From Hyphomonas adhaerens MHS-3 (GTDB taxonomy: Bacteria; Pseudomonadota; Alphaproteobacteria; Caulobacterales; Hyphomonadaceae), in contig NZ_ARYH01000003.1 of NCBI RefSeq assembly GCF_000685235.1, forward strand, positions 62,001 to 126,000: a DNA stretch of 64,000 bases, written 5' to 3'. The notes under the pieces were generated by a model that was not told the DNA's origin, ran no database searches, and worked only from the letters and a program-made list of their open reading frames with translations. A program made the position numbers and the translations under genes. This document shows, in pieces, positions 34,243 through 39,312 of this stretch (position 1 is the stretch's first letter; every line of letters begins with the position of its first letter).

Positions 34243-34269
34243 TGTCACAAAACCGCGCGCTGTCTCGTC
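34243..34269 (+). promoter_or_regulatory. ECF41-type promoter
   Basis: TGTCACA (34243-34249), exactly 16 bp, then CGTC (34266-34269). This is the published ECF41 consensus (TGTCACA-N16-CGTC) in full. It lies 25 bp before the start of the 128-aa gene, first of the operon that encodes the ECF41 sigma factor itself, so the factor very probably activates its own operon. Confidence 0.85.
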
Positions 34270-34294
34270 ATGTCCCTGAAACAGGAGACATGAC

Positions 34295-34681
34295 ATGTGG
34301 CGACCAATCCTTTTCCTCATCGCTGCGGTACATTCCGCGAATGCTCTGACCATGTGGTTTGCGCCGCATTTCTGGTACGGCGCAGTGCCCGGTGTTGCGA
34401 TGATGGGCCCCTTCAACCTGCACTTCGTACGAGACATCGCCCTCGCTTTCGGGATGAGCGCCGGGGCGCTTGCGTATGGCGCGCTGAAGGTCGACCGCTC
34501 AGCCGCCATCTGCGGCGCGGCATGGCCAGCCCTGCATGCGATTTTCCACATCTGGATCTGGTTCGCCCGCGGTCTGCCATTCGATCAGATCGCCTTGGTG
34601 AACCTCGCCGGTATCCAGCTTCCGGCCTGGCTCGCCCTCTCCGCAGCCCTCACGTTTACCCGAAAGGAGATCAGAGCATGA
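34295..34681 (+). CDS. small four-TM membrane protein (128 aa)
   Basis: 128 residues, four hydrophobic segments (about 3-20, 45-62, 68-88, 105-122), with HxWIWFARGLPF near the third. No named family is recognised; DoxX-like or related four-helix proteins are possible. First gene of the ECF41 operon, 25 bp downstream of the ECF41 promoter. Its stop overlaps the AhpD-like gene start (ATGA). The membrane gene may be the output or sensor partner of the sigma factor (inference). Confidence 0.7.
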   Translation: MWRPILFLIAAVHSANALTMWFAPHFWYGAVPGVAMMGPFNLHFVRDIALAFGMSAGALAYGALKVDRSAAICGAAWPALHAIFHIWIWFARGLPFDQIALVNLAGIQLPAWLALSAALTFTRKEIRA

Positions 34682-35214
34682 TCCGCAAATTCCTCCGCAG
34701 CAAAGCCCGCAAGATGGGCCAGCACTACAATTACGATGTCAGCTATATGCACGGCCTGATCGACATCAGCCCGGCGGCGGCCATCGGGCTCGGCCGCCTG
34801 CCCCAATTCTACAAATATCGCGGCCCGGCCGCCGGACAGGCCGCCTGGACCGGCGCCCTCCTCGCCTCCACACTGGAAGGCGATTGCGGCCCGTGCGCCC
34901 AGCTGGTCGTCGACATGGCCCTTGAGGGCGGCGCCGATCCGGCCAGCCTTCAGGCCTGCGCCGAAGGCCGTCCTCAGGAGGCTGGCGTGACCGGACTCGG
35001 CTTCCGCTTTGCCATGATGGCGATCACGGGTGACCCGCGCGCTGACGACCTCCGCCGCGAGATTGAGAGCGCGTTCGGAAAGAAGGCTGCCGTCTCGTGC
35101 GCTTTCGCCGCCGCGTCCGGCCGCATCTATCCCGTTCTCAAACGTGGCCTCGGCCACGGGCAGGCCTGCCAGAGGCTGGACTTTGGCGGCAAGGTCGTGA
35201 AGCTCGCCGCATGA
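34678..35214 (+). CDS. carboxymuconolactone decarboxylase/AhpD-like protein
   Basis: 178 residues, helical. The core LASTLEGDCGPCAQLVVDMAL has the CxxC of AhpD/CMD-type alkylhydroperoxidases, but the His normally four residues after the second Cys is Val here. CMD genes next to ECF41 sigma factors are the standard pairing for this group. The ATG at 34678 overlaps the upstream stop; its own stop overlaps the sigma factor start. Probably a redox-active partner whose activity triggers or is controlled by the ECF41 system (known association, exact role inferred). Confidence 0.82.
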   Translation: MIRKFLRSKARKMGQHYNYDVSYMHGLIDISPAAAIGLGRLPQFYKYRGPAAGQAAWTGALLASTLEGDCGPCAQLVVDMALEGGADPASLQACAEGRPQEAGVTGLGFRFAMMAITGDPRADDLRREIESAFGKKAAVSCAFAAASGRIYPVLKRGLGHGQACQRLDFGGKVVKLAA

Positions 35215-36080
35215 CTGCCGACACTGCCCTGTTCGAAGCCGAGCGCCCGGCCCTGACAGCCCTGTGCTATCGCATGCTGGGCGAGCGGGCGGGCGCGGAA
35301 GACGCGGTGCAGGACACCTGGCTGCGCTGGGAGCGGGCCGACCACGAGGCCATCGAGAACCCCAGCGCCTGGCTGCGCCGCACCGCCACGCGCATTGCGA
35401 TCGATGCCCTGCGCTCGGCCCGGGCGCGTCGCGAGACCTATCCCGGCCCGTGGCTGCCGGAGCCGTTGGTGGAGAGCGAAAGCCTCGGTATCGAAGCGCG
35501 CTTCGAACTCGCGCAGGAATGCGAGTTGGCCCTGCTCTGGGCGATGGAGCGCCTGTCGCCGACAGAACGCGCCGCCTTCATTCTGCGCGAGGCCTTCGAT
35601 GCCGGTTATGACGAGATCTCCGCCGTCACAGGAAAGTCCCAGGCTGCCTGCCGCCAGATGGTCAGCCGGGCGCACCGGCGCCTGCAGGAAAACGGCCCGC
35701 GCTTCGATGCCCCGCCCGCCGAAGTGGCGGACCTGCTGCAGCGCTTCGTTGCGGCGGCCAATGCGCTGGACCATGACGCGGCGCTCTCCCTCTTTGCGCC
35801 AGCCGCGGCGGCCTATACCGACGGCGGCAAGAAGGCCCGTGCAGCGCTCCGTCCACTGATCGGTCCGGAAGACATCACCCAGGTGCTGATGGCGGTCATG
35901 GCCAAGGCCGCGCAAGCAACGACCCAATGGTCGGTGGAGCCGAGCCTCGCCAATGGTGCGCCCGCGATCGTGCGGCGGCTGGACGGCCGGGTGGACCTTG
36001 TCCTGACGCTGGCGCCGTCCTCTGATGGCCGCATCGGCTGGCTCTACGCCATGCGCAATCCGGACAAGCTGCCTGGCTAA
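35211..36080 (+). CDS. ECF41-family RNA polymerase sigma factor
   Basis: 289 residues. Sigma2 region (about 12-75: ALCYRMLGERAGAEDAVQDTW), linker with YPGPWLPEPLV, a hallmark of ECF41, then sigma4 (about 110-165: ERAAFILREAFDAGYDEIS, SQAACRQMVSRAHRRL). The C-terminal 115 residues form the fused SnoaL-like domain (TDGGKKA matches the DGGGK motif region) that acts as an internal anti-sigma or activity switch instead of a separate anti-sigma factor. Start ATG at 35211 (ATGA with CMD). The matched promoter is at 34243. Confidence 0.92.
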   Translation: MTADTALFEAERPALTALCYRMLGERAGAEDAVQDTWLRWERADHEAIENPSAWLRRTATRIAIDALRSARARRETYPGPWLPEPLVESESLGIEARFELAQECELALLWAMERLSPTERAAFILREAFDAGYDEISAVTGKSQAACRQMVSRAHRRLQENGPRFDAPPAEVADLLQRFVAAANALDHDAALSLFAPAAAAYTDGGKKARAALRPLIGPEDITQVLMAVMAKAAQATTQWSVEPSLANGAPAIVRRLDGRVDLVLTLAPSSDGRIGWLYAMRNPDKLPG

Positions 36081-36712
36081 GCCGGGTCCGACAGCATCCG
36101 GTCGCAGAAAGCGTCGTGGGACGCGCGGATTTCGTCCAGGGCATGGTGGATAACCTGGCGCTCCGGATCGAACATGAGTTCCAGCGTCATGCCCCGCAGC
36201 GACAGGATCAGCATGCGCGTATGAACCACCAGTGCGTCGGGGTCATTCACGCCGGCTTCGGCACCGAGACGCCGGGTATTGGTATCCAGCTCGATATCGA
36301 TCTCCCGCGTCACGCGGATCAGCATCGCGGCCAGTTCGGTGTCCCAGCGCGCAGCGAGCAGCACTTCTGTCACGGCCGCGGACATCGGCAGGCTCAGCGT
36401 CTCCCAATACAGGTCACACAGCCGCCGCAATCGCTCGACCGGGTCGGCAATGCGATCGAACCGGGCGCGCGTATCGGCCATCATGGCGCGCATGGCCGCC
36501 TCGATGGTCGCAGCCATCAGGTCCAGCCGGGTCGGGAACTGGTTCAGAACGGAGCCGCGGCTGATCCCGGACTTCGACATCACCGCCTCGATCGAGGTCC
36601 CCGCACAGCCGCGCTCGTTCAGGCAATCGATGCAGGCCTGGATCAGCTGTTTGCGGGTTTCCTCCCCGCGGCGTGTCCGCCGCCGTCCCCCGTGCACATT
36701 TGTTTCGGTCAT
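36077..36712 (-). CDS. TetR/AcrR family transcriptional regulator
   Basis: 211 residues. Helix-turn-helix near 15-60: RGEETRKQLIQACIDCLNER, TSIEAVMSKSGISRGSVLNQ, FPTRLDLMAATI. The C-terminal helical ligand domain is undefined. Divergent from a cupin-SDR-ADH operon 200 bp away; the shared gap has a palindromic operator, so it probably represses that operon and itself. Start MTETNVHG at 36712 is taken over a frame 28 codons longer. Its stop overlaps the ECF41 gene stop tail to tail. Confidence 0.9.
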   Translation of the reverse strand: MTETNVHGGRRRTRRGEETRKQLIQACIDCLNERGCAGTSIEAVMSKSGISRGSVLNQFPTRLDLMAATIEAAMRAMMADTRARFDRIADPVERLRRLCDLYWETLSLPMSAAVTEVLLAARWDTELAAMLIRVTREIDIELDTNTRRLGAEAGVNDPDALVVHTRMLILSLRGMTLELMFDPERQVIHHALDEIRASHDAFCDRMLSDPA

Positions 36713-36789
36713 TCCGTTCGCCGCTTCCTGCCCTGCCGGCGCCGATAATGGCCAGCGCCCTGCGCGCGTCAACCGCGCCGGCCTAATAC

Positions 36790-36826
36790 TAGTCAATGTT
36801 GACTATTTATGTTTTCCAAGCATATT
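36790..36826 (+). promoter_or_regulatory. promoter with overlapping TetR-type operator
   Basis: TAGTCAA-TG-TTGACTA (36790-36805) is a perfect 7-bp-arm dyad. Its right arm contains TTGACT (36799-36804), a good -35, followed 16 bp later by CATATT (36821-36826) as -10. A repressor bound to the dyad would block the -35. It serves the cupin operon (start 36913) and lies 78 bp before the TetR start. Confidence 0.65.
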
Positions 36827-36912
36827 GGCACCCGCAGGTAGACACGGTCATGAGACCGGCGCCTGCAGGCGTGCCCCGCAACGCACTTGCGGCTTCTTGG
36901 AGGAACACAGAC

Positions 36913-37446
36913 ATGACCGACGCACCCGCTGCCGAAAAACCGGCAGCAACCGGCTACCAGATTTTTCGCACATCCGAAGCGCTCTCGCTGGACGAGACGG
37001 CGCATATGGAAGTGGCGGACATAACCCCCGACCTCGAAGCCGGCATCGGCGCAGCGCTGGAAGCCGGTTTTGCCGAGGGCAATGTGGTCAAGACCCTGTT
37101 CTCGCAGCCGGGATTCAGCCTCACCCATGCCTGGTTCAAGAGCGGCTTCCCGCTCCCTCTGCACACGCACAGTTCCGATTGTCTCTACTATATCGTCGCT
37201 GGCAGCCTCCAACTGGGCACAGACACGCTGGGCCCGGGCGACGGTTTCTTCCTGGATGCGGGCAAGGCCTACCGCTACACGCCCGGCCCCGACGGCGTGG
37301 AAGTGCTTGAATTCCGCACCCAGGAAGACTTCGACATCAAGTTCCTCGCGAAGACGCTGCCTGCCTGGCAGAAAATTTCGGGGGTGATCTCCGAGCGCCG
37401 CTCCGCATGGGCAGATGAGTCTCCTCCCAGCTCAGTCCTGTCCTGA
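36913..37446 (+). CDS. cupin domain protein
   Basis: 177 residues. Cupin motif 1 is PLPLHTHSSDCLYYIVAGSLQ (HxH, then the usual Glu position lost to Asp/Cys), motif 2 around GPGDGFFLDAGKAYRYTPGP. The metal-binding site is probably partial. No catalytic class can be named; enzymes and sugar- or small-molecule-binding proteins share the fold. GGAGG lies 8 bp before the ATG. First gene of the TetR-controlled cupin-SDR-ADH operon. Confidence 0.8.
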   Translation: MTDAPAAEKPAATGYQIFRTSEALSLDETAHMEVADITPDLEAGIGAALEAGFAEGNVVKTLFSQPGFSLTHAWFKSGFPLPLHTHSSDCLYYIVAGSLQLGTDTLGPGDGFFLDAGKAYRYTPGPDGVEVLEFRTQEDFDIKFLAKTLPAWQKISGVISERRSAWADESPPSSVLS

Positions 37447-37461
37447 CGGAGCGGCAAACGG

Positions 37462-38250
37462 ATGACGCATAAACGCTTCGACAACAAAGTCGCCATCATC
37501 ACCGGCGCCGCCTCCGGCATCGGCGCGGCCACCGCGCGCCTGATGGCAAGCGAAGGCGCAAAGGTCGTGCTGGCAGACATTTCCGGAGACGCGGCAAATG
37601 CCCTTGCCGCGGCGCTCGGTCCGGATGCCATGGCGGTGACCTGCGATGTCTCGAAAGAGGCAGAGGTCGGCGCCCTCATCAAGGCTGCCGCCGACACGCA
37701 CGGACGGATCGACATCCTGTTCAACAATGCCGGTATCGGCAGTTTCGCGAACACAGTGGAATTGCCGCCGGACCAGTGGGAACAGGTGATCGCGGTTGAC
37801 CTGCACAGCGTCTATTATGCCTGCCACCATGCCATTCCGCATATGCCCCGCGGCAGCGCAATCGTGAACACAGCATCCATTTCAGGCCTGGGCGGGGACT
37901 ACAGGTTTGCCGCCTACAACGCCGCCAAAGGGGCCGTGATCAACTACACAAAGGCGCTTGCGGTGGACCATGCCCGCGACGGCATTCGCGTAAATGCCTT
38001 GTGCCCCGGTCTCGTCGAAACACCGATTACAGCCGGGTTGAACCAGATGCCCGGCCTGCCGGAGGAATGGCACAAGCGCATTCCGTTGGGCCGCGGCGCC
38101 CAGCCGGAGGAAATGGCAAACGTGGTCGCCTTCCTCGCCTCGGACGCCGCCTCTTACATGACCGGCTCCATTATCGTGGCGGACGGCGGCACCACAGCGC
38201 ATACCGGCCAGCCGGAAGTGGCGCAGTTCGCCGGCATGCCGGAGGCTTGA
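37462..38250 (+). CDS. SDR family oxidoreductase (FabG-like)
   Basis: 262 residues: TGAASGIGAATARLM, NNAG at about 89-92, Ser in NTASISGLGG, YNAAKGAVI (Tyr/Lys about 153-157) and the C-terminal GSIIVADGGTTAHTG. The DISGD after beta2 favours NAD(H). Probably oxidises a secondary alcohol together with the next gene; substrate unknown. The stop TGA is immediately followed by the ADH ATG. Confidence 0.92.
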   Translation: MTHKRFDNKVAIITGAASGIGAATARLMASEGAKVVLADISGDAANALAAALGPDAMAVTCDVSKEAEVGALIKAAADTHGRIDILFNNAGIGSFANTVELPPDQWEQVIAVDLHSVYYACHHAIPHMPRGSAIVNTASISGLGGDYRFAAYNAAKGAVINYTKALAVDHARDGIRVNALCPGLVETPITAGLNQMPGLPEEWHKRIPLGRGAQPEEMANVVAFLASDAASYMTGSIIVADGGTTAHTGQPEVAQFAGMPEA

Positions 38251-39312
38251 ATGCGCGCGCTCACCCTGCAGGGAAAATCGTTTCGCATTGCGGACCTGCC
38301 TGACCCGTCCCCCGACGCCGGACAGCTGCTGGTCCAGCCTCTTTTCACCGGCATCTGCGGCAGCGATCTCAGCCTGCGCAAGCAGATGGCGGAGCTGGCC
38401 GATGAGACCCCGTCAGAGGCGCAAGACCAGTTGCCCATCATCGTGCCCGGCCACGAATTCTCGGCAGTTATTGTCGGCATCGGTCCGGGTACGGAGACTG
38501 AGTTAAAGCCGGGCGACCGGGTGACCGGCCTGCCCTTCACGCACAGCCATGACGGCCCGGCCTGTATCGGCCTCTCGCCCGACCACAGCGGCGGACTGGC
38601 GACACTCTCCTGCATTGATGCCGTGCGCACCTTCCGTATTCCGGACGGGATCCCGAACGATCTGGCCGCGCTGACAGAACCACTCTCGGTAGGCCTGCAC
38701 GCAGCGAACCTCGCCAATCGCAATGATGGCCCGAACATGGTGATCGGCTGCGGCCCGGTGGGGCTCGCCGTCATCCTTGCGCTCAGAATCGCCGGACGCG
38801 GCCCCATCCTCGCAGCGGATTTCTCTGCCGAACGCCGCGCCGTCGCCGCCAGCCTCGGCGCTGACATCGTGCTCGATCCGGCCACCGACAGCCCGTATGA
38901 CCGCTGGAGTGACCTCGGCCACGCGCCTGCCCAGATGTCACCGCTGCTGGCGCGGGATTTCCGTGGCCGGCCGCCGGGGCTGAACATTTTCGAGTGCACC
39001 GGCGCGCCCGGCGTCATGGGCCAGATTGTCCAGTCCGCCCCGGTGCATTCCCACATCATCGTGGTCGGCGTCTGCCCCCATGATGAGACAATCACGCCGG
39101 TGGAAGGCATCGCGCGGGAACTGGCGCTGGAGTTCAGCTTCGCCTACCGGCCCGAGGAATTCCGCACCGCGCTCGCCCTCATCGAGGCCCATGCCGATCA
39201 GGCCGCACGCCTGATCACCAGCCGCCAGCCTCTGGCCGGCACCGAAGCGGCGTTCGACGCGCTCGCCAAGGATCCCCATGAAATCAAGATCCTGATCGAC
39301 CCGAACACCTGA
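38251..39312 (+). CDS. zinc-binding alcohol dehydrogenase-like MDR protein lacking the structural zinc lobe
   Basis: 353 residues. N-terminal GroES-like catalytic domain: FTGICGSDLSLR (Cys ligand region), VPGHEFSAVI (His-Glu), PGDRV; then Rossmann part VIGCGPVGLAVILALRIAG and DFSAERRAVAASLGAD. The usual four-Cys structural zinc lobe is absent: the stretch where it should sit reads THSHDGPACIGLSPDHSG. Members of this kind (threonine/sorbitol dehydrogenase-like, structural-zinc-free) exist. Last gene of the TetR-controlled operon; substrate unknown. Confidence 0.87.
   Translation: MRALTLQGKSFRIADLPDPSPDAGQLLVQPLFTGICGSDLSLRKQMAELADETPSEAQDQLPIIVPGHEFSAVIVGIGPGTETELKPGDRVTGLPFTHSHDGPACIGLSPDHSGGLATLSCIDAVRTFRIPDGIPNDLAALTEPLSVGLHAANLANRNDGPNMVIGCGPVGLAVILALRIAGRGPILAADFSAERRAVAASLGADIVLDPATDSPYDRWSDLGHAPAQMSPLLARDFRGRPPGLNIFECTGAPGVMGQIVQSAPVHSHIIVVGVCPHDETITPVEGIARELALEFSFAYRPEEFRTALALIEAHADQAARLITSRQPLAGTEAAFDALAKDPHEIKILIDPNT

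Follow-up and report, generated by a model that had tools for sequence, protein, structure and literature searches.

The window analysed here, a stretch of 64,000 nucleotides from Hyphomonas adhaerens MHS-3 (contig NZ_ARYH01000003.1), contains a compact operon of three genes chained by ATGA overlaps, which encode a small membrane protein (hereafter TM), a CxxC protein predicted to adopt an AhpD-type fold and a sigma factor of the ECF41 group (Table 1). ECF41 is a widely distributed group of ECF factors, for which some 400 proteins in 10 phyla were counted in 2012 (PMC3426412). The nearest named relatives of the three products are found in Hyphomonas, with H. jannaschiana sharing 88, 95 and 91% identity in TM, the CxxC protein and the sigma factor, respectively. 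At the 3' side of the sigma gene lies a convergent TetR-type gene (36077-36709, minus strand), and cupin-like, SDR and zinc-type alcohol dehydrogenase genes occupy the plus strand up to 39312; no ECF41 motif was found ahead of any of these genes (36077-39312).

Table 1. Features of the ECF41 operon, numbered from the first base of the window.
Feature	Position	Strand	Remarks
ECF41-type promoter: -35 TGTCACA, 16-base spacer, -10 CGTC	34243..34269	+	Exact, unique in the genome; conserved 5' of TM in relatives
Predicted transcription start (G), 23-base leader	34272	+	Placed by comparison with starts mapped in R. sphaeroides and B. licheniformis (PMC3426412)
Inverted repeat across the -10 end, leader and ribosome site	34267..34294	+	RNA fold z -3.94; close Hyphomonas-like relatives only
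Ribosome-binding site AGGAG	34283..34287	+	Read from sequence
TM, 128-aa four-helix membrane protein	34295..34681	+	Invariant H43, D47, H81, H85
Class B AhpD-fold protein, 178 aa	34678..35214	+	C70-G-P-C73 and C164; relay His absent
ECF41 sigma factor (SigJ-like), 289 aa	35211..36080	+	SnoaL-like C-terminal extension

The published ECF41 motif comprises TGTCACA and CGTC separated by 16±1 bases, with a G as the start of transcription and a leader of 22 or 23 bases (PMC3426412), and the promoter ahead of the operon agrees with this consensus. An earlier reading of the locus, made from the sequence only, had placed an exact TGTCACA-N16-CGTC 25 bp before the operon; this is borne out, with 25 bases between CGTC and the ATG of TM, and the genome search that it proposed, once run, returned a single exact copy in 3.67 Mb and none of the reversed pattern. 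Within the window, the one exact match compares with 0.05 expected from shuffling, and further sites at up to two mismatches occur at background level (19 found vs 15.4 expected). A leader hairpin was considered as a general ECF41 feature and rejected, since the inverted repeat is present only in close Hyphomonas-like loci. In one of these (L049), an A-T pair of the repeat has become T-A through changes on both sides, and another change is unpaired.

The identification of the third gene product as an ECF41 sigma factor with a fused SnoaL-like domain likewise stands. Sigma-70 regions 2 and 4 score over their Pfam cut-offs (PF04542, 52 bits; PF08281, 41 bits), the NCBIfam SigJ cut-off is passed (283 vs 271 bits) and the alignment with Mycobacterium tuberculosis SigJ (5xe7) spans residues 4-289, SnoaL part included (E 6.5e-40). 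By itself, Pfam SnoaL_2 remains below cut-off on this protein (18.8 vs 27). The WLPEP linker motif, as defined for ECF41 (PMC3426412), is present (GPWLPEPLV), and the C-terminal end reads NPDKLPG. The curated cut-off of TIGR02957, a library threshold and no published criterion of ECF41, is missed by the window sigma factor (292 vs 323 bits), as it is by most members of its bacterial class, being passed in 12 of 48 matching genomes. One promoter ahead of a COE gene followed by the sigma gene is the commonest COE-bearing arrangement on record (107 of 373; Wecke et al. 2012, PMC3426412), and hypothetical genes between promoter and COE had already been noted in the same work. Sigma domains, SigJ match, published gene order, motif and predicted 23-base leader all agree; in its regulatory core the module is thus ordinary for ECF41, with a gene order that is common in print, and the novelty sits in its partners.

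The first of these partners, the CxxC protein, is encoded at the place where published ECF41 modules often have a COE gene (CMD, oxidoreductase or epimerase). It had been described as CMD/AhpD-like, with a CxxC and without the usual His, and this description holds for the CxxC itself (CGPC, residues 70-73), for position 77, which is a Val, and for the predicted AhpD fold; as a CMD protein in the family sense it does not hold, for none of the Pfam and NCBIfam families, CMD (PF02627) included, matches the 178-aa protein at E 0.1 and the protein falls in a distinct class. Among its close relatives, PF02627 was reached by 1 of 15 (E 0.63). The predicted structure (pLDDT 86.1) aligns with 6e8l over 163 residues (Z 12.0, rmsd 3.6) in an all-helical AhpD/CMD fold, and the first 17 ranks of the fold comparison are all of AhpD/CMD type at Z of at least 8.1, with the debrominase Bmp8 among the nearest, the next being sestrin 2 (Z 6.5). 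Profile-profile comparison with ordinary ECF41-linked CMD proteins sets CxxC on CxxC at an hhalign probability of 91.4, the class profiles leaving out six rows (two loci in three overlapping copies each) that fit neither CxxC class pattern. Among PDB sequences, the CxxC profile returned chance-like matches only (E at least 0.08) and the best Foldseek E was 0.2; hence, the AhpD assignment stands on the fold comparison and the profile-profile alignment.

In AhpD, a Glu before and a His after the CxxC make up the proton relay. The ECF41-linked CxxC proteins split into two classes, of which class A keeps the usual Glu and His in the pattern ELVKxRASQxNGCxxCxxMH. Class B, to which the window protein belongs, comprises 36 distinct sequences with DCGxC and a third cysteine, C164, in every one of the 35 not gapped at that position; not one of the 36 has His at position 77 or Glu at 58-59. 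The loss of the relay His implies that peroxidase activity may be lacking in class B, and the retention of DCGxC and C164 across the 36 sequences argues that this class is no mere product of drift. On the predicted fold, the CxxC protein is thus of AhpD type yet of a separate class, rather than a slightly altered CMD. Class B was found in 22 of 289 genomes of the bacterial class, and all 22 are ECF41 carriers, which, defined at E 1e-40, number 48 of the 289 (hypergeometric 5e-20, to be taken as a guide only, since the relatedness of the genomes is ignored). In one genome (G027, regions L016 and L146), the class B gene next to the TM and sigma genes is interrupted by an in-frame stop, and the sigma factor is matched in part only; this copy is possibly decaying, or else reflects an assembly error.

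The second partner is the membrane protein. The four transmembrane segments read earlier from its sequence recur in the AlphaFold2 model (pLDDT 90.6) as four membrane helices joined by short loops, with no soluble domain. H43, D47, H81 and H85 are invariant in all 58 TM proteins compared, and the model places HxxxD and HxxxH on two successive helices, a set of residues that could bind a metal or a redox cofactor. TM was assigned to no known family, no match having been found for the window protein in Pfam, NCBIfam or the PDB sequences; weak Pfam matches among its relatives go to DUF4345 (3 of 18) and DoxX_2 (1 of 18). The best rows of the fold search, CD53 (Z 12.0), CD9 (11.2) and NACHO/TMEM35A (10.1), were discarded as relatives because their Z values lie within the chance range of common four-helix bundles, and rows for VKOR and EBP (Z ~8) were also set aside.

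The distribution of TM ties it to ECF41. The set of 58 TM proteins, no two of them identical but from related lineages, combines 21 from a sample of the bacterial class, 12 more from a phylum sample, 17 from a scan of named genomes and 8 from plasmid records. The phylum sample of 398 genomes yielded a TM match in 15, all of the same class, and 29 plasmid records had a match, of which 8 entered the set and one further record (L228) was examined besides. TM precedes a sigma gene in 37 of the 58 places, with a CMD gene in between in 34 and with none in three (L066, L067 and L218), an arrangement also seen in L228, outside the set. The sequence-only reading had staked its case on conservation of the promoter in relatives, and upstream DNA is available for 36 of these 37 loci: all 36 carry the motif within one mismatch, and 29 carry it exactly. 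By comparison, random 240-base windows from the same loci contain a motif at up to one mismatch in 403 of 23,200 cases, a rate of 1.7% at most, the real promoters being included in the draw. Conservation of the 128-aa gene with ECF41, also proposed as a check, is further seen in the 289 genomes of the class, 19 of which have TM, 18 of these being ECF41 carriers. Among fetched ECF41 regions, TM stands directly ahead of CMD and sigma genes in 11 of 47, or 12 of 48 counting the window. Its occurrence is patchy: TM is absent from one genome of the same genus and two of the same family.

No sigma gene follows TM in the remaining 21 of the 58 places. Three of these nonetheless carry the motif: in L147 an exact copy precedes TM and a class B CMD gene, the sigma gene detected there lying on another contig, and in L148 (exact) and L149 (one mismatch), from the same genus, TM stands alone under a motif conserved between the two despite their different spacers. 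The other 18 have neither sigma gene nor motif, and TM thus also lives outside ECF41. In L153 (1865-2817) and L154, TM is followed by a class A CMD gene in the absence of a sigma gene and of any motif within one mismatch, so that this pair too exists without ECF41.

These data bear on what TM does in the operon. It might be a chance passenger under the promoter of an ordinary ECF41 module, with the CxxC protein as a drifted plain CMD. Such a reading would accord with the published prevalence of CMD-sigma pairs behind one front promoter and the hypothetical genes recorded in between (PMC3426412), and with the absence of TM from 7 of 18 fetched class B-sigma operons other than that of the window. 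We regard it as improbable nonetheless, given that TM stands ahead of sigma in 37 of the 58 places, across many families and with the promoter moved ahead of TM each time, that the motif is found on TM in trans, that all 58 proteins share the four invariant residues, and that class B keeps its own cysteine pattern. TM might also be a membrane sensor or an anti-sigma-like brake, which would bind the sigma factor and let it go when a signal arrives, in the manner of classical ECF factors, for which membrane anti-sigma factors are frequent (PMC3426412). Its presumed co-transcription with the sigma gene and the four TM-sigma pairs devoid of a CMD gene speak for such a role, which we hold to be unlikely, because the model of four helices and short loops appears to leave no sigma-binding soluble domain, because TM occurs in 18 places with neither sigma gene nor motif and under the motif away from sigma in L147-L149, and because the ECF41 factor of B. 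licheniformis is described as functional in B. subtilis without partner proteins (PMC3426412). That TM is an output rather than a sensor is the interpretation we infer, and the occurrence of the motif in front of TM and of the CxxC protein, in trans too, leads us to read both as outputs. The membrane gene had been deemed an unusual ECF41 partner, which remains true of the literature, as no publication was found that names the TM family with ECF41 (it may hide unnamed among the hypothetical genes of Wecke et al., Figure 2/Table S1), but not of the genomes, where it is recurrent. The accompanying hunch of a new output gains strength from the TM-sigma pairs and the motif-bearing TM genes away from sigma.

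At the level of ECF41 loci at large, the motif occurs within one mismatch near the operon in 44 of the 47 fetched regions; it is missing in L131 and L138, and L103 is truncated at the contig edge. The 48 ECF41-bearing genomes contain 92 exact motifs vs 42 of the reversed pattern, and hence about half of the exact sites may be due to chance. This share of chance sites is what favours a third explanation, in which the promoter string and gene order of the window are accidental or hitch-hiking, a housekeeping promoter drives the operon and the sigma factor acts elsewhere. The uniqueness of the motif in its genome, its position, kept in all 36 loci, the ECF41 dependence of the same motif demonstrated in two species (PMC3426412) and the start mapped from it in S. 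meliloti (PMC6180224) make that explanation exceedingly improbable.

Several loci carry more than one putative promoter. A 658-kb plasmid of Methylobacterium radiotolerans (L066) has four exact motifs, all inside ~4.1 kb: one precedes the TM-sigma pair, and the other three lie before the gene of an MBL-fold protein, that of an NmrA-like NAD(P)-binding protein and that of a class A CMD. Shuffling of the 10-kb locus gives an expectation of 0.02. Three exact motifs are present in L218, ahead of TM-sigma, an MBL gene (product 80% identical to that of L066) and an NmrA-like gene (79%). In Novosphingobium resinovorum the motif is followed by the gene of an NAD(P)H-binding protein, then by TM and then by the sigma gene, and in another genome (G211) a class B gene lies under an exact motif with the sigma gene on a different contig. 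Judged by its sequence, L129 is another multi-promoter ECF41 locus, in which a CMD gene (one-mismatch motif) and an NmrA-like frame (exact motif with a 17-base spacer) are followed by a cupin-like frame ahead of the sigma gene. Stand-alone TM genes on plasmids of Skermanella (L063, 4073-6400) and Bosea (L068, 4905-8381) have in their vicinity MBL and NmrA-like/SDR genes related to the motif-bearing ones of L066 and L218, here without motif or sigma gene. Away from the ECF41 locus, exact motifs occur in two genomes of one genus (L186, 2078-2104; L187, 2826-2852) with a partly diverged spacer, some 480-500 bases ahead of an MBL-like gene, and four further exact sites fetched from the 48 genomes (L188-L191) gave no clear reading. 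Sites before MBL-like genes in G009 and G143 lie some 480-500 bases 5' of the gene and were not counted as targets. According to Wecke et al. (PMC3426412), each ECF41 factor generally controls a single gene or operon, and loci with the motif on both COE and sigma genes are noted in the same study. An Azospirillum ECF41 factor is cited in a review for motility and lateral flagella, so that one target is not universal in print either. The multi-motif loci suggest a wider ECF41 regulon in some lineages, against the one-target rule.

The locus is probably best understood as a SnoaL-gated, self-amplifying ECF41 operon making a membrane and thiol-redox pair, the chemistry of which we infer. This scheme builds on what is plain from the DNA (gene layout, promoter, conservation of that promoter, sigma family and invariant residues) and on the predicted fold class of the CxxC protein. 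The sigma factor would be made at a low level and restrained by its own SnoaL-like C-terminal domain, until a ligand, probably a small one, or a chemical insult shifts that domain; the freed factor would then load RNA polymerase on the single TGTCACA-N16-CGTC promoter, yielding more sigma factor and more output. Autoinhibition through the ECF41 extension has been published (PMC3426412), and its operation in the window sigma factor, like autoregulation, is presumed by analogy with the studied members of the group. The output would consist of TM, with its His/Asp/His/His set and possible metal or redox cofactor, and of the AhpD-fold CxxC protein with its third cysteine, which together might act on an electrophilic or peroxidic compound, reducing or detoxifying it through combined membrane and thiol chemistry. 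That the two proteins share one reaction is a tentative guess from their co-conservation and redox-type residues. Deletion of ECF41 in R. sphaeroides and B. licheniformis is described as giving no oxidant phenotype (PMC3426412), so the substrate may be something else, although those loci are not known to carry TM; the presence of Bmp8 among the nearest folds makes a halogenated or otherwise electrophilic compound a candidate. A bolder and rather doubtful extension is that alphaproteobacterial ECF41 commands a multi-gene membrane-redox pathway under one motif, with TM as the core enzyme bearing an intramembrane metal site (H43, D47, H81, H85) and, as its partner, an AhpD-fold protein with three cysteines, joined in some lineages by an NmrA-like reductase and an MBL hydrolase. 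If true, the ECF41 signal would be the substrate of the TM membrane enzyme.

The main ECF41 study reports neither a phenotype nor an inducing signal (PMC3426412). New here are the TM family as an ECF41 partner, the class B protein, which in the 289 genomes sampled is confined to ECF41 carriers, and the loci with several promoters; all three provide concrete genes for probing ECF41 function, with the four invariant residues of TM and the third cysteine of its partner as exact targets for mutation. The recurrence of TM under the same promoter points to a new output of this regulator, and the rule of one target operon may not hold everywhere.

M. tuberculosis SigJ, an ECF41 factor, resembles the window sigma factor in its architecture over residues 4-289, in the WLPEP linker and in NPDK near the end; its gene neighbourhood appears to be different. 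DUF4345 and DoxX-like proteins are small membrane proteins, as TM is, but the window TM itself reaches neither family. Proteins of the AhpD/CMD fold (PF02627; 6e8l, Bmp8 6ohi, 1gu9) are like the CxxC protein in fold, with CxxC aligned on CxxC, whereas the window protein has no Pfam match, lacks the Glu/His relay and possesses an extra invariant C-terminal cysteine. The closest parallels in layout are the RSP_0606-ecf41 module of R. sphaeroides and the SMb20029-rpoE9 module of S. meliloti, whose start sites have been mapped (PMC3426412 and PMC6180224, respectively) and which share with the window a CMD-type gene before the sigma gene, a single promoter in front and the same -35 and -10 elements. 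The window module differs in having a membrane gene in first position and perhaps also in the class B nature of its CxxC protein.
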